Assembly: GCA_937870635.1 (NCBI GenBank) | Contig: CALMZP010000032.1 | Span: 1 to 64,000 of the forward strand | DNA: 64,000 nt | Direction of reading: 5' to 3' | DNA from: an uncultured Acidobacteriota bacterium | GTDB taxonomy: Bacteria > Acidobacteriota > Thermoanaerobaculia > Gp7-AA8 | Notes under the pieces: model-generated | Seen by the model: the letters and a program-made list of their open reading frames with translations, nothing else | What the model was told of the DNA's origin: nothing | The model's database searches: none | Made by a program: the position numbers and the translations under genes | Part shown: in pieces, positions 5,024 through 61,269 of the stretch | Layout of the letters: every line of letters starts with the position of its first letter | Position numbering within the stretch: position 1 is the first letter of the stretch

Positions 5024-5218
5024 AGGATGAAGGATGAAGGATGCGACCTGACCCACTGTCATCCCGAGCGTGAGCGAGGGACCTGGGGGATGGGCGGCAC
5101 GAGGCATGATCTTCGAGCCCCCCACCCTCCAGATCCCTCGCTCACGCTCGGATGACACGGCCTTCATCCTTCATCCTTCTGGCTTCTCCCTTCCGCCTTC
5201 CAACTTCTGCCTTCTGCG
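5012..5218. repeat. Composite hairpin: heptamer arrays around a TCATCCCGAGCG palindrome
   Basis: From 5012 four copies of the 7-mer GATGAAG/AAGGATG run rightward. From 5161 to 5217 about eight degenerate 7-mers of the complementary type (CTTCATC, CTTCTGG, CTTCTCC and so on) follow. Inside them, 5058-5085 (GTCATCCCGAGCGTGAGCGA) pairs with 5130-5156. The whole unit can fold into one long imperfect hairpin. It fills the gap between rnhA and the PhyH gene and supplies the rnhA stop codon. Confidence 0.8.
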
Positions 5219-16576: not shown

Positions 16577-16785
16577 GTGTCATTCCGAGCGAAACCTGGA
16601 TGCTCGCGGCGCTCGCTGTTCACGTCATCCTGAGCCGGCGAAGCGCGGGCGTTGGACCTCAGGTTACGCATCTTGAGGCCGTTCGGCGTCTTCGCGCCTC
16701 AGGGTGACGTGGCTCGTTTCTCCCTCGCAGGCACGTCGCGCTTCAGGAAGACCATTGGAGCGCGGGCGACCCCGCCCGCGCTCTG
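16577..16785. repeat. Dispersed palindromes after katG, including a GC-rich hairpin
   Basis: A GTCATTCCGAGCG start at about 16578, a CGTCATCCTGAG segment near 16623 and a complementary GCGCCTCAGGGTGACG near 16696-16711 form nested imperfect palindromes. At 16758-16768 GAGCGCGGGCG pairs perfectly with 16773-16783 around the loop ACCC; this last hairpin belongs to the GC-rich family found elsewhere in the window. No gene is seen here. Confidence 0.65.
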
Positions 16786-29950: not shown

Positions 29951-30033
29951 CCATCTCAGACACAAGAGGTTTTTGTGGAGCCGCGGGCGATTCCGCACGC
30001 CAGACGAGCATTCCTGGAAACAAAGTTGTTTAT

Positions 30034-30181
30034 CCACCCGCCCTTCCACCGTGACGCCACCCGCCGCTCCCGCCGTAACTCCCGCCTCCCCCGCCGGTGC
30101 TGAGACGGCGCGTTACGGTGGTTGGGTGGGCGGCGTCACGGTGGAAGGGGCGGGCGGCGTCACGGTGGAGCGGGCGGGTGG
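30034..30181. repeat. GTGACGCC array A (symmetrical)
   Basis: Left arm copies of CCGTGACGCC with CCACCCGCCCTT spacers face right arm copies of GGCGTCACGGTGGA-N-GGGCGGG (about 24-bp period, three units ending at 30181). The centre has CCGTAACT and GTTACGG facing each other, with a divergent middle. Just upstream, at 29975-30001, lies half of the GC-rich palindrome. It is the first of four such arrays and precedes the CHRD-like gene. Confidence 0.75.
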
Positions 30182-30263
30182 AAAACTGACAATCCCTTCT
30201 CCTCTTCCTGCACGCGGGTGCCGCCTGCCTGTTACAGGCTTCGGAACTCGACAGGAGGAGATC

Positions 30264-31367: not shown

Positions 31368-31408
31368 TGATGAACGAAACCGATGCGTGGCGGTTCGCCT
31401 TCCCCCAT

Positions 31409-31603
31409 TCCGCCGTGACGCCGCCCACCCATCCCAACCGTGAGGCCAACCGCCCGTCCCACCGTGACGCCGCCATCCACCCAGCCGTGACGGGGGGCGC
31501 AGTTACGGCGGTCGGGAGGGTGGGCGGCGTCACGGTGGAAAGGGTGGTCGCCGTCACGGCGGAGAGGGCGGGTGGCGTCACGGGGGCGTGAGTGGGTGGC
31601 GAA
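31409..31603. repeat. GTGACGCC array B (symmetrical)
   Basis: Left copies of CCGTGACGCC (about 31412, 31463, 31486) and right copies of GGCGTCACGG and variants (about 31526, 31550, 31573) flank a core CCGTGAC-GGGGGGCGCA-GTTACGG (about 31485-31508). It lies directly upstream of the TPR-kinase gene and downstream of the SGNH start, so it occupies the shared promoter region. Confidence 0.75.
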
Positions 31604-35037: not shown

Positions 35038-35058
35038 CGCCACCCGATGATACCCCGA

Positions 35059-35224
35059 CTGTGACGCCACCCGCCCTGCCCACCGTGACGCCCGCCATCC
35101 GCCCACCCGTGACGGGGGTGCAGTTACGGCGGCCGGGGGGACGGCGTCACGGCGGTGAGGGCGGACGGCGTCACGTGCGGTCGGTCGGCGGGCGTCACGG
35201 TGGGCAGGGCGGGTGGCGTCACCC
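35059..35224. repeat. GTGACGCC array C (symmetrical)
   Basis: GTGACGCCACCCGCC (from about 35061) and a second copy near 35083 face right copies of GGCGTCACGG at about 35142, 35167, 35190 and 35214. The core CCGTGACGGGGGTGCA-GTTACGG (about 35107-35129) is identical, apart from orientation, to the core of array D. It lies between the DUF4242 start and the second kinase start. Confidence 0.78.
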
Positions 35225-37876: not shown

Positions 37877-38048
37877 CGCCGCCCGCCCATCCACCGTTTC
37901 GCCACCCACCCACGCCCCCGTGACGCCGGCCACCCCGGCCACCGTAACTGCACCCCCGTCACGGGGCGGATGGCCGGCGTCACGGTGGGAAGGGTGGACG
38001 GAGTCAAGGCGGCGTGGGTGGGTGGCGTCACGGCGGCAGGGTGGGTGG
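37858..38048. repeat. GTGACGCC array D (symmetrical, reversed core)
   Basis: Left copies of CCGTGACGCC begin at about 37870 and 37918. The core, CCGTAACTGCACCCCCGTCACGG in two halves (about 37942-37964), is the reverse complement of the array C core. Right copies of GGCGTCACGG follow at about 37976 and 38024. The first unit gives the stop codon of the kinase, and the array ends 40 bp before the TonB receptor start. Confidence 0.78.
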
Positions 38049-38087
38049 CCGTCGAAACCTTTCGTATCCGTCTACGAATATCGTCGT

Positions 38088-44910: not shown

Positions 44911-45105
44911 TCATCCCGAGCGCAGCGAGGGATCTCCGGAAGCACCGTCATTCAACATTCAACATTGAACATTCAACATTGCCGTTTCTGTGGACAAAGA
45001 CCGAAATGTTGAATGTTCAATGCTCAATGTTGAATGTTGAATGTTGAATGACGGTGGGGACGTCCCTGCCCGTGGTACCGGAGATCCCTCGCTTCGCTCG
45101 GGATG
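44911..45105. repeat. Composite hairpin: TCATCCCGAGCG arms outside, heptamer arms inside
   Basis: TCATCCCGAGCGCAGCGAGG at 44911-44930 pairs with 45082-45105. Inside, the 7-mer ATTCAAC is repeated about four times (44949-44981) and faces about six copies of GTTGAAT (45005-45052). The loop is about 23 bases. The order of the two parts is reversed relative to the units at 5012 and 49223. Confidence 0.8.
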
Positions 45106-49422: not shown

Positions 49423-51108
49423 ATGAAAAGACTTCTGGGCGTCGCACTCGTTCTCGCTTGCAGCATTCCTGTTCTCGCTCAGCGGAAGGCGCCGTTCTCC
49501 GTCGTCGAGGCAACGATTCCCGAGATGCAGGAAGCGTTGCGCAGCGGACGCGTGACGTCGCGCGAGCTGGTCACGCAGTCGCTCATACGTATTGCGATGT
49601 ATGAGGATCAGCTCAACGCGGTGATGACCGTGAACCGGAAGGCGCTCGAGGAGGCCGACCGCCTCGACCGCGAGCGCGCGGCAGGCAAAGTGCGCGGGCC
49701 GCTGCACGGGATTCCCGTCGCCCTGAAGGACAACATCAACACGACCGACATGCCGACGACCGGCGGCGCGCTGGCGTTTGCCGGGCTCCTTCCGCCCTAC
49801 GACGCAACGGTCACGAAGAATTTGCGCGAGGGCGGCGCGATCATCCTCGCCAAGACGGGGATGACCGAGCTGGCGAACTGGATTTCATCGCGTCCGATGC
49901 CGACCAACTACAACTCGATGCACGGCTACGCGTTCAACCCGTACGACGCGCGGCGCGATCCGCGGGAAGCGACGCGCGACGGCCGTCCGGTACTGGCAAC
50001 GGGCGGCTCGAGCTCCGGTGTGGGTACCGCGGTCAGCTTCTGGGCCGGCAACGTCGGCACCGAAACCTCCGGGTCGATCCTGAGCCCGTCGAACCAGAAC
50101 ATGCTGGCCGGCATCAAACCGACCGTGGGGCGCGTGAGCCGTTACGGCGTCATTCCCATTACTGCCGATCAGGACACACCCGGCCCGATGGCCCGTACGG
50201 TGAAGGATGCCGCGATCGTGCTCGGCGTGCTCGAGGGATCGTCGCCCGACCCGAACGATCCGGCCACGTCGAAGTGCATGCCTCCGCCGAACCGCGACTA
50301 CACCGTCTATCTGAGGAAGGATGGACTCAAAGGCGCGCGGATCGGCATCCCCCGCGCCTTCTATTACGACAAGTTCACGCCTCCCGGTGCCGACCGGCCC
50401 CGCGGCGGACTCAATGACGACCAGCTCAAGTCGATGAACGAGGCCATCGCCGTGATGAAGGCGCAGGGGGCGACGATCGTCGATCCGGCCAACATCCCCA
50501 GCGTGATCGACACGAACCCCGACAACAACTATCTCCTCTGGGGCATCTGCACGACGATGGATGACCTGAAGGAGCGGAAGTGCTCGATCGACTTCGCGTA
50601 CGGAATGGAGCGTGACTTCAACGCGTGGCTCAAGTCGCTGGGCGATGCGGCTCCGGTGAAGACGCTCGCCGAACTGCGCGAGTGGAACGAGGAGCACGAG
50701 AAGATGGGCACGCTGAAGTATGGCCAGGGGATCCTCGACTTCTCGAGCGCGATGGACCAGGAGATCTTCAAGGCCCGTTACGAAGCCGACCGCGCCCGCG
50801 ACATCTATCTCGCCGGAACGCACGGCATCGACGCAGTGATGAAGAAAGAGAAGCTCGATGCCCTCATCTTCCCCGCGGGCTTCGGCGCGGCCATCGGCGC
50901 ACGGCCGGGATATCCGACGGTGATCGTTCCGTACGGCATGGTTCCGAACGCGCCGACGCCGGCGTTCCCGGAGTCATTCAAGGCAAAGCCTGCGCCTTTC
51001 GGTGTCAGCTTCACGGGCATGGCCTGCAGCGAGCCGGCGCTGCTCAAGCTCGCTTACGCCTTCGAGCAGGCCACGAAGAAGAGGGTGCCGCCGCCTGATT
51101 TTCCGTAG
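49423..51108 (+). CDS. Exported amidase (amidase-signature family)
   Basis: This protein has 561 residues and a signal peptide (LLGVALVLACSIPVLAQ). The Ser-cisSer-Lys triad is visible: Lys in IPVALKDNINT, cis-Ser in ATGGSSSGVG and nucleophile in GTETSGSILSPS. It hydrolyses an amide in the periplasm; relatives include bacterial glutamyl amidotransferase-A-like and peptide amidases. It ends at a perfect 51-bp inverted repeat whose first base is the last base of the stop codon. Confidence 0.9.
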   Translation: MKRLLGVALVLACSIPVLAQRKAPFSVVEATIPEMQEALRSGRVTSRELVTQSLIRIAMYEDQLNAVMTVNRKALEEADRLDRERAAGKVRGPLHGIPVALKDNINTTDMPTTGGALAFAGLLPPYDATVTKNLREGGAIILAKTGMTELANWISSRPMPTNYNSMHGYAFNPYDARRDPREATRDGRPVLATGGSSSGVGTAVSFWAGNVGTETSGSILSPSNQNMLAGIKPTVGRVSRYGVIPITADQDTPGPMARTVKDAAIVLGVLEGSSPDPNDPATSKCMPPPNRDYTVYLRKDGLKGARIGIPRAFYYDKFTPPGADRPRGGLNDDQLKSMNEAIAVMKAQGATIVDPANIPSVIDTNPDNNYLLWGICTTMDDLKERKCSIDFAYGMERDFNAWLKSLGDAAPVKTLAELREWNEEHEKMGTLKYGQGILDFSSAMDQEIFKARYEADRARDIYLAGTHGIDAVMKKEKLDALIFPAGFGAAIGARPGYPTVIVPYGMVPNAPTPAFPESFKAKPAPFGVSFTGMACSEPALLKLAYAFEQATKKRVPPPDFP

Positions 51109-51237
51109 GCTGTTTTGAGGGTCACGTCTGCACTTGGCACTTTCTCTCCGGTGAGTAGAGAGCGGGAGGTTGGCCCGGTGGGCTTACTACTCACCGGAGA
51201 GAAAGTGCCAAGTGCAGACGTGACCCTCAAAACAGCC
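51108..51237. repeat. Perfect 51-bp inverted repeat with 28-nt loop
   Basis: Bases 51108-51158 and 51187-51237 are perfectly complementary; the loop is 51159-51186. The arms contain GGGTCACGTCTG and CACTTTCTCTCCGG. A second hairpin with an equally long loop and a related motif is at 54100-54201. No transposase is present. Confidence 0.95.
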
Positions 51238-51245
51238 CACTGGCA

Positions 51246-51280
51246 ACTTTGTTGCACAAAGTACTTCGTGGCGATACTAT
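51246..51280 (+). promoter_or_regulatory. Promoter and operator of the regulator operon
   Basis: TTGCAC (51252-51257) and TACTAT (51275-51280) are 17 bp apart. Over them lies ACTTT-N7-AAAGTACTT (51246-51266), shared with 52253-52273. Transcription from here would begin at about 51287-51288, exactly at a GTG codon, and the ATG at 51279 would lie in the -10 box. Confidence 0.6.
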
Positions 51281-51287
51281 GGAACCT

Positions 51288-51881
51288 GTGAGCAGCCCCG
51301 CACCCGATTCGATTCACGAGCGCGCGATCGCCGACCTCCGCTATATCCGATCGGCCGTCGAGAACGCGGGCTCCTTCACGGCGGTGTCGGGTGTCGGCGG
51401 CGTTGCCCTGGGTGCGGTCGGACTGGTGGCGGCGATGATCGCTGCCACCGAGACCAGCACTCCCAGCCGCTGGCTCACCGTGTGGCTCATCGCCGCCGTC
51501 GTGGCGTGCGCGATCGGAGCCGCGGCGATGGCCCGCAAGGCCCGTCGGGCCGGCGCGTCGCTCGTTTCCGCTCCGGCCCGGCGATTCGCTCTGGCCTTCT
51601 TTCCCGCGATCGGCGCGGCCGCCATGCTGACCGCAGCGCTGGTCGGCCACGGGTTGTTCGATGTGCTCCCGGGGTTGTGGCTACTGCTGTATGGAGTCGC
51701 CGTATCGGCCGGCGGCGCGCTTTCCGTCCGCGTCGTTCCGTTCATGGGCGTGGGACTCCTGGTCATCGGAGCGCTGGCTCTCTTCGTTCCGTTCCAGACG
51801 GCGAACCTTCTCCTGGGGATCGGTTTCGGTGTCGTGCAGATCGCAGGAGGCGTTGTCATCATGAGGAGGTATGGTGGCTAA
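51288..51881 (+). CDS. Membrane protein encoded with a winged-helix regulator
   Basis: This protein has 197 residues: a short hydrophilic start (SIHERAIADLRYIRSAVENAGSF), then about six helices in three pairs (VGGVALGAVGLVAAMIAA and following). It overlaps the next gene, a small regulator, by 11 bp. The pair of a membrane protein with this start and an HTH gene is a recurrent arrangement. I favour the leaderless GTG at 51288; the ATG at 51279 is in frame. Confidence 0.65.
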   Translation: MSSPAPDSIHERAIADLRYIRSAVENAGSFTAVSGVGGVALGAVGLVAAMIAATETSTPSRWLTVWLIAAVVACAIGAAAMARKARRAGASLVSAPARRFALAFFPAIGAAAMLTAALVGHGLFDVLPGLWLLLYGVAVSAGGALSVRVVPFMGVGLLVIGALALFVPFQTANLLLGIGFGVVQIAGGVVIMRRYGG

Positions 51882-52236
51882 ACCGCTCAAGAAAACTGGA
51901 ACTGTCGACGCCAGGCCGCGTCCGCACAACCGAACCGGCGATTCGACCCGCGAGCTCGACCGGCTCATCCATGAGCGCCTGCGTCTGGGCATCGTTTCCG
52001 CGCTGGCGGTCAACGAATCGCTCTCCTTCACCGATCTCCGGACCATGCTGGACACGACGGATGGCAACCTGAGCGTCCACGCGCGGAAGCTGGAGGAGGC
52101 GGGGTACATCCACTGTGCGAAGACCTTCGAAGGGCGGCTGCCTCGCACGGCCTACAAGCTCACCGCGACGGGACGCAAAGCGCTGGAGCGTTATCTCAAT
52201 CACATGGAGGCGCTGATCCATGCCATGCGCCGCTGA
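51871..52236 (+). CDS. Winged-helix transcriptional regulator
   Basis: This regulator has 121 residues: ERLRLGIVSALAVNESLSFTDLRTMLDTTDGNLSVHARKLEEAGYIHCAKTFEGRLPRTAYKLTATGRKALERYL is a MarR/ArsR-like winged helix (HTH_34/HTH_27 type). A GAGGAGG site precedes the ATG. The shared ACTTT-N7-AAAGTACTT element at its own promoter and at the start of the next gene is its most likely binding site. Confidence 0.82.
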   Translation: MVAKPLKKTGTVDARPRPHNRTGDSTRELDRLIHERLRLGIVSALAVNESLSFTDLRTMLDTTDGNLSVHARKLEEAGYIHCAKTFEGRLPRTAYKLTATGRKALERYLNHMEALIHAMRR

Positions 52237-52252
52237 TTTTTTTTGCGAGGTT

Positions 52253-52273
52253 ACTTTATGACACAAAGTACTT
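52253..52273 (+). promoter_or_regulatory. Second copy of the ACTTT-N7-AAAGTACTT element
   Basis: ACTTT at 52253-52257, seven bases, AAAGT at 52265-52269 and ACTT after it repeat the element at 51246-51266 almost base for base. It overlaps the uppS-like start codon (52258), so a bound protein could control this gene too. Confidence 0.55.
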
Positions 52274-53001
52274 TCCACGTAGCAATCATCATGGACGGCA
52301 ACGGCCGCTGGGCCACTGAGCGCGGCCTCTCCCGCACCGCCGGCCATCGCGCCGGCGCCGATGCCGTCCGCCGCATCGTCGAAGCCGCACCGGCCGCAGG
52401 CATCGACCTTCTCACTCTGTACGCATTCTCCTCCGACAACTGGAAACGGCCCCCCTTGGAGGTCGAAGCGCTGATGTCACTCTTTCAGCGTTTCCTCTCC
52501 GCAGAAACGGCGCGCTGCGTCGAATCGGGTGTCCGCCTGAACATCATCGGCCGGCGCGACCGCCTCACACCCACCCTGGTCCGTCTCATCGAATCCGCTG
52601 AAGACGCGACGCGGCACTGCGAGCGGCTGCGGCTGCGCATTGCCATCGATTACTCGTCGCGCGACGCCATCGCCCGCGCCACGTGCACACTCTGCTCCGA
52701 GGACGAGAGTAGTGGAGCCGCGGGCGATCACGCCCGCCGTTTCCGCCAGCGCCTCTCCCTCGCCATCAACGCCGACAGCACCGTCGAAGACGTTGATCTT
52801 CTCATCCGCACGGGCCGCGAGAAGCGCCTCAGCGACTTTCTCCTGTTCGAGGCCGCCTATGCGGAGCTGCATTTCAGCGACCGCCTCTGGCCCGACTTTG
52901 CCGGTGACGATCTGATGCTTGCCATCGACGAGTTCCACCGGCGCGATCGCCGTTTCGGCCTGGTCCAGCCGGCGATGGAAAGCATCCCGTGTACGACATA
53001 A
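52258..53001 (+). CDS. uppS: Cis-prenyltransferase (UppS-like)
   Basis: This prenyl diphosphate synthase has 247 residues. [13 protein letters not shown] carries the catalytic Asp, [10 protein letters not shown] the substrate loop, and [29 protein letters not shown] the C-terminal motif. It makes a long cis-polyprenyl diphosphate. The partner gene encodes a geranylgeranyl-reductase-like enzyme, so the pair may make a reduced polyprenol or lipid. Residues about 152-162 ([11 protein letters not shown]) are encoded by a GC-rich palindrome (52713-52738) inserted in frame. GAGG precedes the ATG by 7 bases. Confidence 0.85.
52713..52738. repeat. GC-rich palindrome inside the uppS-like gene
   Basis: TGGAGCCGCGGGCGATCACG, followed by CCCGCC, matches the palindromes near 44066 and 58922. 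It lies in a loop region of the UppS fold and adds about nine in-frame codons. Confidence 0.75.
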
Positions 53002-54200
53002 CGGTCGTCGGCGCCGGCCTCGCCGGACTGCAGGTCGCACGGCTCGCTGCGCGCGGTGGCGCAGCGGTCCTTCTGGTCGACGCGCGTCGCAGCGTCACGG
53101 AGTGCGTGCGCACCACGGGGATCTTCGTCCGCCGTACCTTCGACGACTACCCCTCACTCCTCCCATTCCTCGGCTCTCCCATCCGTTCCATCGGCATTCA
53201 CTCTCCTGCCGGCCGGTCGATCGGACTCGTGAGCGATCGCGACGAGTTCCGCGTCGGAAGAATGAAACCGCTGTACGAGGCAATCTTGCAGCAGGCCATC
53301 GCCGCCGGCGTCGAGTGGCGGCCGAACACGACTTACGCTTCGCTGCGCGCCTCACGGGGACATTCCGAGGTCGTCTTTCGAGACGGCAGCGAGGTGAAGA
53401 CGCGGTTCGTCGTCGCCGCCGACGGTTCCCGCTCCCGCGTCGCCCGCGACCTCGGCCTCGACCAGAACAGCGAATGGATCACAGGTGTGGAAAGCGTGTT
53501 TCCATCCGAGTCGAGGGGCGTTCCGCGCTTCGACTGCTGGATCGATCGACGCGTGGCTCCCGGCTACCTTGCCTGGATGGTCGACGACGGCGAGGACATG
53601 CATGTCGGCGTCGGCGGTGATCGCGCACGTTTCGATCCGTCGGCGGCGCTGGAGGCATTCGAGCGGCGCATGCGAAAGGAAGGGCGGCTCGCGGCGCGGA
53701 GTCCGATCGAACGCCGCGGCGGATTGATCCCGGTCAACGGTGTTCTGCGGCGGATCGCCAACGCGCGGGGACTGCTCGTCGGCGATGCGGCCGGCGCCGT
53801 CTCCCCTTTGACAGCTGGCGGACTCGATGCGTGCATGCGCCTTTCCTCTCACGCGGCTTCCGTCCTCCTGGATGCCTTGCGGGACGGGGTGGCGCTGGAT
53901 CGCTACGATGGTTGTGCGTTCCGCAGCCGCTTCGCATCGCGGCTGGCCATGCGCCAGCTGTTCAACCTGGCCACACAGTCACGCGCGTTGATCGAGATCG
54001 GATTTGCCGTCGGCGGAACTGCCGTCGCGCGACGGCTCGTCCGCCACGTTTTCTTCGGCCGCGGATCCTTTCCCGATCCCGCTCAGCCTCGCAGGAAGTG
54101 TCATGGTGTCAGGTCTGGAAAAACAACTTTTCTTCCGATACCGGGTGACAAACCGGACACTGTTGGAAGAAAAGTTGTTTTTCCAGACCTGACACCATGA
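52989..54200 (+). CDS. Geranylgeranyl-reductase-like FAD oxidoreductase
   Basis: This flavoprotein has 403 residues: FAD motif [28 protein letters not shown], then [36 protein letters not shown] and [25 protein letters not shown]. Members reduce isoprenoid chains or act as monooxygenases. The GTG start lies 13 bp inside uppS, so the two are coupled. The last about 33 residues are encoded by a perfect inverted repeat (54100-54201) and are probably not native. Confidence 0.82.
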
Positions 54201-54201
54201 C
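54100..54201. repeat. Perfect 37-bp inverted repeat with 28-nt loop
   Basis: Bases 54100-54136 and 54165-54201 are perfectly complementary; the loop is 54137-54164. The arms contain GTGTCAGGTCTG and CAACTTTTCTTCCG, related to GGGTCACGTCTG and CACTTTCTCTCCGG of the hairpin at 51108. It sits between two convergent genes and overlaps the end of the first. Confidence 0.95.
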
Positions 54202-54205
54202 GCGG

Positions 54206-56653
54206 TCAGATCGGCGGACCGGCCGGAATGGGTGGCGCCGCGGGAGCGACGAATGGCGCGGCCGGGCGATTCAGGAATCGCTCGATCATCGCCACGACGG
54301 ACCGGCGGTCAGCGGCTTCGACATCGGTCGAAGGCCGCGCCTTCAGCTGGCGCGACAGATCCGACAGCGCCTGCTCGTATTGAGCCCGAACCGAGGCATC
54401 CGTCGCCGGATCGGCGGCGACTTCAATCAGTTTGCCGGCGGCTACGGATCGCACCGCTCGACGCAGCGCGCGATGCGATTCGGGCTCACTCACATCCGCC
54501 ACGACGACATCGACCACACTCCTCGTCACCTCGGCCAGCGCGGGATTGCGCGCGTCTTCCGCGTGAAAGCGGAGCAGGCGCGCCGCTCGTGCAGGATGCA
54601 GAAGGGCGTTGACTGTCACCGCCGCCGCGCCACGCGCTGCTGCAATTGGATCGAACAGCGCGCCAGTCGCGCGGTCGAACCTCTCCGCCGTGCCGCCCTC
54701 GAACCCGTCCGCAACGGGAGGGATGAGATCGATGATCCGCTGCGGAATCGCGAGAAACGCCGGCTCGATCGTCTCGAGCGCCGCCTTCAGCGCTTCCCTC
54801 TGCCGCGCGGGAGCCACGACTTCTCGCACCGGCTGAGGAACGATCTCCGTCGCCACTCCCTCGCGCACGGCATACGTGAACATGACACCGCCGAGAGATT
54901 TGACGGCGGCCTCGAGCTGGTATCGGTGGTGGAGATACAGGGGAAGCAGAATCGGCTCGAGCTCCGAGAGAGGTGCTCCCGGTCTCAGGTTTGCGACACC
55001 GAACGAGTCGAGTGCGATCTTTCTCACTTCCATCTCGTGACGGAGCATCGCGATCGGATCACTGCCGTTGTCCCAGACGGAACCGAGGGGATGAGGGGCG
55101 CCGACGTCGCGGGAGTGCTCGTCCGAGACGAAGAGCATTCCGTGCGCAACGCCTTCGCGGATGATGCGAGCCAGTTCTGCTTCCTCATTCGCAGAAGGCG
55201 GAAACTGGCTGTATCCGTATCGAACCGCGAACATGTCGAACTCCCCGATCCCTTCGTCGTACGCCTCGGAGAAGTTGAGACGGCCATCGCGGATCAGAAT
55301 CATGGGTGCGGGATAGTCCATCACCGATGCGCGGTCGTAGGTGCTCGCCGCCATGTTGTGCGCGATTCCGAGGGTGTGGCCGACCTCGTGCGCGGCGAGC
55401 TGACGGATGCGCGCGAGCGCAAGCTTCGTAGGCGACACCGATTTGTCGAGCGTTGCCAGGACTTCCGGGTTCGGACCTTCGTACGGAGGAATGAGTCCCG
55501 CGCCGAGCATCACATCCTGGCGGATGCGCAGTGAACCCAGCGAGACGTTCCCCTTGATGATTTCGCCGGTGCGCGGATCGACGACAGCCGCACCGTACGA
55601 CCAGCCGCGTGTCGACCGATGCACCCAGTTGATGACGTTGTAGCGGATGTCCATCGGATCGACGTTCTCCGGCAGGATCCGCACCTCATAGGCATTCCGG
55701 AACCCGGCTTTCTCGAACGCCTCCTTCCACCAGCTGGCCCCTTCGACCAGTGCCGAACGGATGGGCTCCGGCGCGCCGTGATCGACGTAATAGATGATGG
55801 GCTCGACGACATCGGACACCGGCGCCGCCGGATCTTTCTTCTGGAGACGATGCCTGGATATGAATCTCTTCTCGAGCGGCCCGGGGAACGGACTGGCGTA
55901 GTCGTACACCTCGATGCCAAAAAAGCCCGCGCGAGGATCGAGTCGTCGCGGCTCGTAACCCGGCCGCGGCAGCTCGACGAACGAATGGTGCTGTCGGACA
56001 GTCACGACCTCGGGCGTGGGCGTGACGGAGCTGACGAGCGACCCCGGGCGATCGTTCGTCACCAGCGTGATCGTCGCTTCCACCTCGGTATTTTCGGGGA
56101 ACGATTTCGTCCGTGGCAGGTAGATCGCGCTGCGCTTCGGATCGACGCTGTACGAACCCTGCTTCGCATCGCGAAGCCGCGCGGCCACACCGTGTGCGTC
56201 GCGCAGGAAGAACTCGGTCGCGTCGACGATCGGCCCTCCCGCCGATTCCCTCTCGACGGGGAAGGACCAGAGGATCGACGAGGCGAACGACTCTTCCACG
56301 GCCCGCCGCTCACCGGCCGAGCCGTTCACGGTCCTGAAACGGAGGTTCGGCTGCACCATGAGGACTCGCGGTCCGCGCCGCTCGAAGCGGACGAGGTGCG
56401 TCGAGCCGAGCTGCCCGCGATCGAGACCAAGTGGATTCGATCCGACGCCGGAGGCCAGCGAGACCTGGTAGATCAACTCATGGTCGAGGCGGGGAATCTC
56501 CAGGAGGAGCTTTCCTTCGCCGTCGTTCCAGTGGAGTGGAAGGAAGCCGGGCATCGACTTCTCCCCGTTTCGACCCGGTTCCGCTTTCGGCGCCGGGGTC
56601 GCCGATGCGCAGGCAAGAGTGAGCGTGACGAGAAGGGCTGTCAGGATCCGCAT
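54206..56653 (-). CDS. Zinc-dependent metalloprotease of the DUF5117/DUF4953 type (lipoprotein)
   Basis: This protein has 815 residues. The lipobox LTLAC lies near residue 15. The metzincin motif HEVGHTLGIAHNM is near residue 421, followed by the Met-turn region (ASVMDYPAP). An N-terminal beta-rich DUF5117 part precedes it and a helical C-terminal DUF4953 part follows, rich in Pro at the end. Such large proteases are multiplied in Acidobacteriota and Bacteroidota and are thought to degrade external protein. It converges on the hairpin at 54100. Confidence 0.9.
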   Translation of the reverse strand: MRILTALLVTLTLACASATPAPKAEPGRNGEKSMPGFLPLHWNDGEGKLLLEIPRLDHELIYQVSLASGVGSNPLGLDRGQLGSTHLVRFERRGPRVLMVQPNLRFRTVNGSAGERRAVEESFASSILWSFPVERESAGGPIVDATEFFLRDAHGVAARLRDAKQGSYSVDPKRSAIYLPRTKSFPENTEVEATITLVTNDRPGSLVSSVTPTPEVVTVRQHHSFVELPRPGYEPRRLDPRAGFFGIEVYDYASPFPGPLEKRFISRHRLQKKDPAAPVSDVVEPIIYYVDHGAPEPIRSALVEGASWWKEAFEKAGFRNAYEVRILPENVDPMDIRYNVINWVHRSTRGWSYGAAVVDPRTGEIIKGNVSLGSLRIRQDVMLGAGLIPPYEGPNPEVLATLDKSVSPTKLALARIRQLAAHEVGHTLGIAHNMAASTYDRASVMDYPAPMILIRDGRLNFSEAYDEGIGEFDMFAVRYGYSQFPPSANEEAELARIIREGVAHGMLFVSDEHSRDVGAPHPLGSVWDNGSDPIAMLRHEMEVRKIALDSFGVANLRPGAPLSELEPILLPLYLHHRYQLEAAVKSLGGVMFTYAVREGVATEIVPQPVREVVAPARQREALKAALETIEPAFLAIPQRIIDLIPPVADGFEGGTAERFDRATGALFDPIAAARGAAAVTVNALLHPARAARLLRFHAEDARNPALAEVTRSVVDVVVADVSEPESHRALRRAVRSVAAGKLIEVAADPATDASVRAQYEQALSDLSRQLKARPSTDVEAADRRSVVAMIERFLNRPAAPFVAPAAPPIPAGPPI

Positions 56654-56711
56654 GACGGCCGATCTTAAAGGCACCGTCGTGCCGTGACCACTTGAAATAC
56701 AGTGGCGGGCG

Positions 56712-57443
56712 ATGTCGCTCCTTGCGCTGTCCCTCGCCGCGCTCATCGGCCTGTCGCTCGGCCTGCTCGGCGGCGGCGGGTCGACGCTCGCCGTTCCGAT
56801 CCTCGTCTACGTCGGCGGCATGGACGCGAAGCCCGCCATCGCCACGAGCCTGCTCGTGGTGGGAACCACGAGCTTCATCGGCGCCATTCGCCACTGGCGC
56901 CACGCGAACGTCGAGCTTCGCACGGCGATCCTGTTCGGATTGATCTCGATGGCCGGCTCCTACGCGGGCGGCAGGCTGGCCTCTCATCTGTCGGATACCT
57001 TTCAGCTCGTTCTGTTCGCTGTCGTGATGCTGGTCGTCGCGGTCTCGATGTTCCGCTCGGGAACCGGCGAACGTCCGAGCACGAGGCTTCCGCTCGTTGC
57101 GCTCGCCGCAGCGACGGTGGGTGTCCTGACAGGCATCGCGGGCGTGGGCGGTGGGTTTCTGATCGTCCCCGCTCTCGTACTGTTCGCGGGCGTTCCGATG
57201 GCGCGTGCCATCGGCACATCGCTCGTCGTCATCGCCATGAACTCGGCCGCGGGCTTCGCCGCATACTCGGGAACCGTGCGGCTCGACTGGGTCTACACAG
57301 CGCTCTTCACCGGACTGGCCATCGCCGGCGTGCTCGTCGGGTCATCGCTCGCCCGTACGTTTTCGCCGATCCTGCTGAAGCGCGTCTTCGCAACCTTCCT
57401 GATCGGAGTGGCCACCTTCATGCTCGTCCACGCGGCGCTCTAG
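56712..57443 (+). CDS. TauE/SafE-family membrane transporter
   Basis: This protein has 243 residues and about eight helices in two similar halves. LSLGLLGGGGSTLAVPILVYVGGMDAKPAIATSL and VGVLTGIAGVGGGFLIVPALVLFAGVPMARAIGTSL are the two family repeats. Members export sulfite, sulfoacetate or other anions. The substrate is not predictable. Divergent from the metalloprotease; its stop overlaps that of the convergent EamA gene. Confidence 0.9.
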   Translation: MSLLALSLAALIGLSLGLLGGGGSTLAVPILVYVGGMDAKPAIATSLLVVGTTSFIGAIRHWRHANVELRTAILFGLISMAGSYAGGRLASHLSDTFQLVLFAVVMLVVAVSMFRSGTGERPSTRLPLVALAAATVGVLTGIAGVGGGFLIVPALVLFAGVPMARAIGTSLVVIAMNSAAGFAAYSGTVRLDWVYTALFTGLAIAGVLVGSSLARTFSPILLKRVFATFLIGVATFMLVHAAL

Positions 57444-61156: not shown

Positions 61157-61269
61157 TGGACCGTGCTGGACCTTGGACCTTGGACCTTGGATTTTGGATT
61201 TTGGATTTTGGATTTTGCTTAGGTCTCGGATCATGCCATCCCCAGGTCCAAGGTCCAAGGTCCAAGGTC
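61157..61269. repeat. Heptamer hairpin TTGGACC/GGTCCAA
   Basis: Heptamers TTGGACC (three, from about 61167) and TTGGATT (four, to about 61217) run left of the loop. AAGGTCC heptamers (three, 61244-61268) run back. The loop is about 25 bases. The unit lies directly upstream of the acyl-CoA dehydrogenase start and cuts the ExbD remnant. Confidence 0.8.

Follow-up and report, generated by a model that had tools for sequence, protein, structure and literature searches.

Dispersed near-perfect hairpins in an uncultured acidobacterium share their ends with DnaA-C-type RAYT transposase genes

Introduction

Repeat families built on terminal inverted repeats (TIRs) and associated with TIRtrons and TIRYTs occur in Acidobacteria such as Koribacter (Di Nocera et al. 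2013, PMC3733652), and GGGGWSAS is the TIR motif in the majority of known TIRtron/TIRYT cases (PMC3733652). TIRYTs probably correspond to TnpA_REP subclass 2.1, which combines a HUH-Y core with a C-terminal DnaA-like helix-turn-helix and has been equated with RAYT group 1 (PMC6006769). Repetitive extragenic palindromes (REPs) near stop codons are known as well, and those lying at most 15 nt from a stop have been reported to stall ribosomes (PMC12306157). Here, we analyzed two long hairpins, A and B, in a 64,000-nucleotide stretch (the window) of contig CALMZP010000032.1, which belongs to a 4.52-Mb, 171-contig metagenome-assembled genome (MAG) of a soil acidobacterium (GCA_937870635.1) whose nearest named relatives bear the label gp7. 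Each hairpin represents a dispersed family whose arms recur at the ends of a RAYT gene elsewhere in the genome, and both are very probably non-autonomous elements of a RAYT system of the TIRtron/TIRYT branch (TnpA_REP subclass 2.1).

As in TIRtrons (PMC3733652), a RAYT gene lies between long TIRs, and the same TIR is dispersed in the genome both singly and as dimers; the ends come within one mismatch of GGGGWSAS. Unlike in TIRtrons, the dimers are near-perfect palindromes reaching 116 bp, with loops as short as 0 nt, family A is homodimeric throughout, and two families coexist, each with its own RAYT. The resemblance to REPINs (Bertels & Rainey 2011, PMC3116915) lies in two inverted repeats that form one long hairpin, dispersed outside genes and linked to a RAYT; however, GTAG is absent from the A and B flanks as a conserved tag, no small palindrome sits inside each repeat, and the RAYT is of the DnaA-C type (subclass 2.1/group 1) rather than the REPIN-bearing type. 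The HUH-Y core, the C-terminal DnaA-like helix-turn-helix, and the flanking TIRs are shared with TnpA_REP subclass 2.1, but the survey of that subclass saw no REP-like sequences near the genes (PMC6006769), whereas the dispersed hairpin families described here carry the same ends. Finally, reverse-complement copying, as in template-switch hairpins (PMC8794818), could create and keep perfect stems in the way we propose, although it was established in that study by reconstructing the ancestors of RNA genes and is here inferred for mobile repeats. The element is thus of a known kind and reveals no new class of system; what stands out is that arms are identical within a copy and different between copies, and that the palindromes are unusually perfect and homodimeric. 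The link of dispersed near-perfect hairpin families to DnaA-C-type RAYTs is of interest because REP-like repeats went unseen in this branch in a broad survey, and the genome, with two families and a transposase-bearing copy of each, offers a natural data set on how mobile palindromes keep their arms identical.

Results and discussion

The window hairpins belong to two dispersed repeat families

The two hairpins comprise the following features (arms of hairpin B, then of hairpin A).

51108–51237, no strand: family B hairpin element, TIR/REPIN-type, probably non-autonomous; 16 complete copies, cognate RAYT ends
51108–51158, plus strand: left arm of B, 51 bp, foot TGTTTTGAGGGTCACGTCTGCACTTGGCACTTTCTCTCC; it starts on the final base of the TAG stop codon of an amidase-like open reading frame (ORF)
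51159–51186, no strand: loop of B, 28 nt, copy-specific
51187–51237, minus strand: right arm of B, 51 bp, perfect inverted copy of the left arm
54100–54201, no strand: family A hairpin element with 37-bp perfect arms; 31 complete copies, 76 motif sites in the genome
54100–54136, plus strand: left arm of A, GTCATGGTGTCAGGTCTGGAAAAACAACTTTTCTTCC
54137–54164, no strand: loop of A, 28 nt, inner stem diverged
54165–54201, minus strand: right arm of A, 37 bp, matching the left arm perfectly in inverted orientation; it contains the stop of the upstream ORF (TGA, 54198–54200)

The mismatch-free arms had been reported in a preliminary description of this DNA, and their coordinates and lengths were reproduced exactly. 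A and B are the two longest perfect hairpins of the window, all others having arms of at most 23 bp, and the longest perfect arms in Markov-shuffled versions of the window (n = 3) reached only 11 to 13 bp. Folded as single-stranded DNA, B and A gave z-scores of −18.6 and −14.0, respectively; single arms folded against shuffles had no significant structure beyond the shuffle level. The same description had taken the hairpins for diverged copies of one family with two shared motifs. GnGTCAnGTCTG is common to both, as stated, but CAnCTTTnCTnCCG matches B only weakly and with an indel (CACTTTCTCTCCG), and the single family did not hold up: the inner stems fall into two distinct families, each with its own cognate RAYT, and the foot alone is common to them.

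A genome-wide search for motif pairs, suggested beforehand, recovered paired hairpins of both families. Motif counts refer to the whole genome and hairpin statistics to 1.14 Mb of the 4.52 Mb, mainly around motif sites. The GTGTCANGTCTG pattern occurs at 39 forward and 37 reverse sites, compared with none for the reversed control pattern. Family A (foot GTGTCAGGTCTG; GTCAGGTCTGGAAAAACAACTTTTCTTCC and variants) occupies about 40 loci, 31 of them complete, and family B (foot GGGTCACGTCTG; GTCACGTCTGCACTTSGCACTTTCTC) has 16 complete copies. All 47 complete copies have unique flanks on both sides; no target-site duplication was obvious by eye in the listed flanks. Perfect arms measure 21 to 58 bp in A and 35 to 54 bp in B, with loops of 0 to 67 nt (n = 31) and 1 to 38 nt (n = 16), respectively. 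A loop of 28 nt was found in two A copies and one B copy, so that its presence in both window hairpins, correctly noted before, is a coincidence and not a constant of the element. Variable loops had been named in advance as grounds for rejecting the proposal; they dispose of the constant loop and leave the class of element standing. Mismatched cells are rare in the outer stem (23/1178 in A and 0/480 in B) and more frequent in the inner stem (49/248 and 11/128).

Several details of the family A surroundings were also recorded. At L082 (contig C110, 9990–10115), a family B hairpin is inserted immediately next to one half of a family A foot (TGACACCATGAC), so that an element of one family adjoins what is left of the other. 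Extra copies of GTCATGG stand immediately outside five A hairpins (L055, L056, L067, L034, and L050), and CATGG, CCTGG, or CATGT was counted 7 times in 62 A flanks versus about 2 expected; these extra copies may reflect a target preference or tandem remnants.

Each family shares its ends with a RAYT gene

Three Y1 transposase genes are present in the genome (contigs C157, C170, and C139) and none lies in the window, in agreement with the earlier remark that no transposase is found there. A Y1 transposase with the same terminal motif had been predicted elsewhere, and two were found. The C157 RAYT gene has GTCATGGTGTCAGGTCTGGAAAAACAACTTTTCTTCC on its left and an inverted GTCATGGTGTCAGGTCTGGACATTGGACATTTCTTCC on its right, both family A arms that differ from each other, and the C170 gene lies between GAGGGTCACGTCTGCACTTCGCACTTTCTCCAC and an inverted TGTTTTGAGGGTCACGTCTGCACTTCGCACTTTCT, which are family B arms. 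All three proteins match NCBIfam REP_Tyr_transpos, C139 over the cut-off and C157 and C170 under it, and Pfam Y1_Tnp was matched over its cut-off. The HUH motif (NHVH/NHYH) is located at residue 59 and the tyrosine, Y119, within YxxLNPVR. A profile of the A/B-type family matched TnpA_REP in its N-terminal part (4er8, E 5.5e-5) and the DnaA domain IV helix-turn-helix in its C-terminal part (1l8q and 2hcb, E 3.5e-4; positions 224–313), and 3 of the 23 family members matched Bac_DnaA_C individually.

Most of the 22 related RAYT genes examined carry GGGGTCA-type inverted repeats at both ends, and a RAYT of this kind is present in 37 of 81 genomes. Hairpins matching the foot pattern were found in 3 of 80 related genomes; their feet read GGGGTCAGGTCTG, which is an exact GGGGWSAS, and they have other inner stems and perfect arms of 23 to 44 bp. 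The exact motif thus occurs in the hairpins of G001, G004, and G060 and at many related RAYT ends, and the present genome departs from it by one mismatch in A (GGTGTCAG) and one in B (AGGGTCAC). Since the same arms stand at the RAYT ends, the protein is of the TnpA_REP/DnaA type, and the ends are close to GGGGWSAS, the hairpins are best read as non-autonomous TIR/REPIN-type elements, which bears out the RAYT/IS200-type REP or non-autonomous element put forward originally.

The third Y1/RAYT gene (C139, L086, 6620–7162) encodes 180 amino acids and is flanked by copies of a third palindrome, CGGGCGANCTCGCCCGCG. This pattern gave 110 matches on both strands of the 1.14 Mb and, being near-palindromic, counts each site up to twice; sites were listed in the window at 16763, 24177, 29520, 58849, and 58931. 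In G004 and G013, which belong to the same genus, a repeat of about 210 bp with inverted arms was seen (L243, approximately 930–1140), with dozens of copies in G013.

Arms are identical within copies and differ between copies

Over 38 sites, A arms diverge by 0.0195 within a copy and by 0.121 between copies, about a sixfold difference; over 30 sites, B arms diverge by 0 within and 0.015 between copies. Each family has two copy-private changes present in both arms (in A at L054 and L070; in B at L080 and in the window copy), counted over 38 sites, against an expectation of about 0.003 per family for independent hits. All 31 A hairpins are homodimers or are one to two changes away from one, and none joins the two ends of the C157 element. 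The origin of the A hairpins by simple internal deletion of the RAYT element was considered and ruled out, as those ends differ and no hairpin joins them. Uncorrected inheritance predicts arms at least as different from each other as those of related copies, and the data therefore suggest that one arm has been copied from the other, repeatedly; we hold such templating to be rather likely. Compensatory changes on both sides have already been noted in REPINs (PMC3116915), and template switching is an established route to making and keeping perfect stems (PMC8794818).

Beyond the conserved GTC[A/C]TGGTG, the palindrome runs on for 3 to 6 copy-specific bases in 14 of the 31 A copies. The mean extension is 2.0 bp, compared with 0.80 in permuted flanks, where the top mean in 5000 permutations was 1.55. 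L040 and L085, which have the same rare arm type, also have GGTT in common, and part of the extension may therefore travel with the element; either fold-back copying of the flank or preferential insertion into palindromic targets would account for the remainder. A tentative suggestion, for which we see less than even chances, is that RAYT-driven hairpins of this branch arise, or are renewed, when one end is copied by fold-back together with a few bases of target flank, so that each insertion ends up as a perfect homodimeric palindrome. If true, this would account at once for arm identity, for the absence of left/right heterodimers, and for the copy-specific extension.

Hairpins lie close behind stop codons

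Three genes adjoin the window hairpins, two of them named by eye.

49423–51108, plus strand: amidase-like ORF; its TAG stop (51106–51108) abuts hairpin B
52989–54200, plus strand: FAD-dependent oxidoreductase-like ORF (named by eye); the final ~34 codons and the stop come from hairpin A
54206–56746, minus strand: metalloprotease-like ORF (named by eye), convergent, its end adjoining hairpin A

B was said to begin in a stop codon and A to extend the end of a gene, and this is what the coordinates give: B starts on the G of the TAG, and the ORF ending at 54200 crosses A. Amidase orthologues in the family terminate at the same residue, which indicates that the insertion of hairpin B left the amidase ORF untruncated. 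Both window copies fit a wider pattern. Hairpins lie 1 to 6 nt downstream of a stop, frequently between convergent genes. With genes called by a simple hexamer scorer, 23 of the 39 stop-codon sides in family A fall at most 6 nt from the stop, compared with 4.6% for uniform intergenic placement and 19.6% when a single position is drawn at random in each gap.

Proposed mechanism and rival explanations

Each hairpin is gene-free and made up of one terminal repeat present twice in inverted orientation. In the mechanism that we propose, it would be mobilised from another locus by the RAYT of C157 or C170, which would bind the foot of the folded single strand (GTGTCAGGTCTG in A, GGGTCACGTCTG in B) and move the element. 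New copies would land just behind stop codons. One arm would template the other, most likely during replication or repair of the folded single strand, by template switching or snap-back synthesis, and the arms would remain identical within a copy as the lineages drift apart.

Several points weigh against this reading. P0001 and P0002 score 67.2 and 72.6 bits against the NCBIfam REP_Tyr_transpos cut-off of 80, and neither, searched singly against Pfam, gave a helix-turn-helix match. Neither an empty site nor a fresh insertion was found in the genomes compared, and mobility is thus deduced from copy number and unique flanks: in 17 genomes of the family, the orthologues of the amidase and the metalloprotease stand in other gene orders, a scan of named genomes gave a best amidase protein identity of 76% ('gp7 AA8', an Acidobacteriota MAG) and no empty site, and for two G004 hairpins the flanks in the sister species G013 and G017 could not be aligned across the site. 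The private double changes are few, the stop-codon statistic depends on simple hexamer-based gene calls, and arm identity fits palindromes that form de novo, are corrected whenever they transpose, or are kept by structural selection alike.

The hairpins might instead be structural RNA signals (terminators, 3′-end stabilisers, or ribosome-stalling hairpins) selected at gene ends, with the RAYT link being historical. Their place 1 to 6 nt behind stops, often between convergent genes, well inside the distance at which REPs are reported to stall ribosomes, and the much better conservation of the outer than the inner stem would suit such a role. Copy number, unique flanks, a common foot, and the match to transposase-gene ends nevertheless demand a mobile element first, selection for RNA pairing need not conserve the foot sequence fully, and no U-tract follows the hairpins. 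An Rfam search found no family at threshold; the sub-threshold hits were microRNA-precursor models alone, which match any long stem. We therefore consider RNA signals very improbable as the primary explanation, although the hairpins may have a secondary RNA role. Even less credible is an assembly or chimeric-read artefact from self-folded library molecules. Perfect arms of up to 58 bp with loops of 0 to 4 nt do look like products of fold-back, and the assembly is a MAG; the 47 complete copies, however, combine a common family sequence with flanks that are unique on either side, arm mismatches occur in older copies, the same ends occur on RAYT genes, and relatives of other genera show the same design. 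Several contigs also break inside hairpins, and their end flanks match (C124 with C171 and C141 with C167).

A stronger competitor, though still an unlikely one, accepts the mobile element and attributes its perfect arms to a burst of copying that started recently from a small number of perfect masters, without arm templating. The 13 A copies that carry GAAAAACAACT in both arms are what a burst would leave. At least eight perfect arm types coexist, however, some of them copy-private in both arms; mismatches cluster in the inner stem, where simple decay would spread them evenly; and among the 31 A hairpins none pairs one end of the autonomous copy with its other, differing end.

Other repeats in the window and genome

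Further repeats were noted. Arrays of seven-base units (GATTTTG, CGACCTT, GGACCTT, and AATGTTG/AACATTC) occur at 61167–61269 of the window and at many other loci, with inverted copies close behind that form long hairpins; no transposase link was found for these arrays, of which the GATTTTGGATTTTGG pattern alone has 120 matches in the 1.14 Mb. A dispersed inverted repeat, CCCGAGCG(N)AGCGAGGGA, lies at window positions 5064–5151, 44912–45105, and 49263 and has 39 matches in the 1.14 Mb. Repeats of the GTGACGCC type, clustered and facing either way, form large imperfect hairpins at 30028–30186, 31404–31568, 35055–35222, and 37878–38049.

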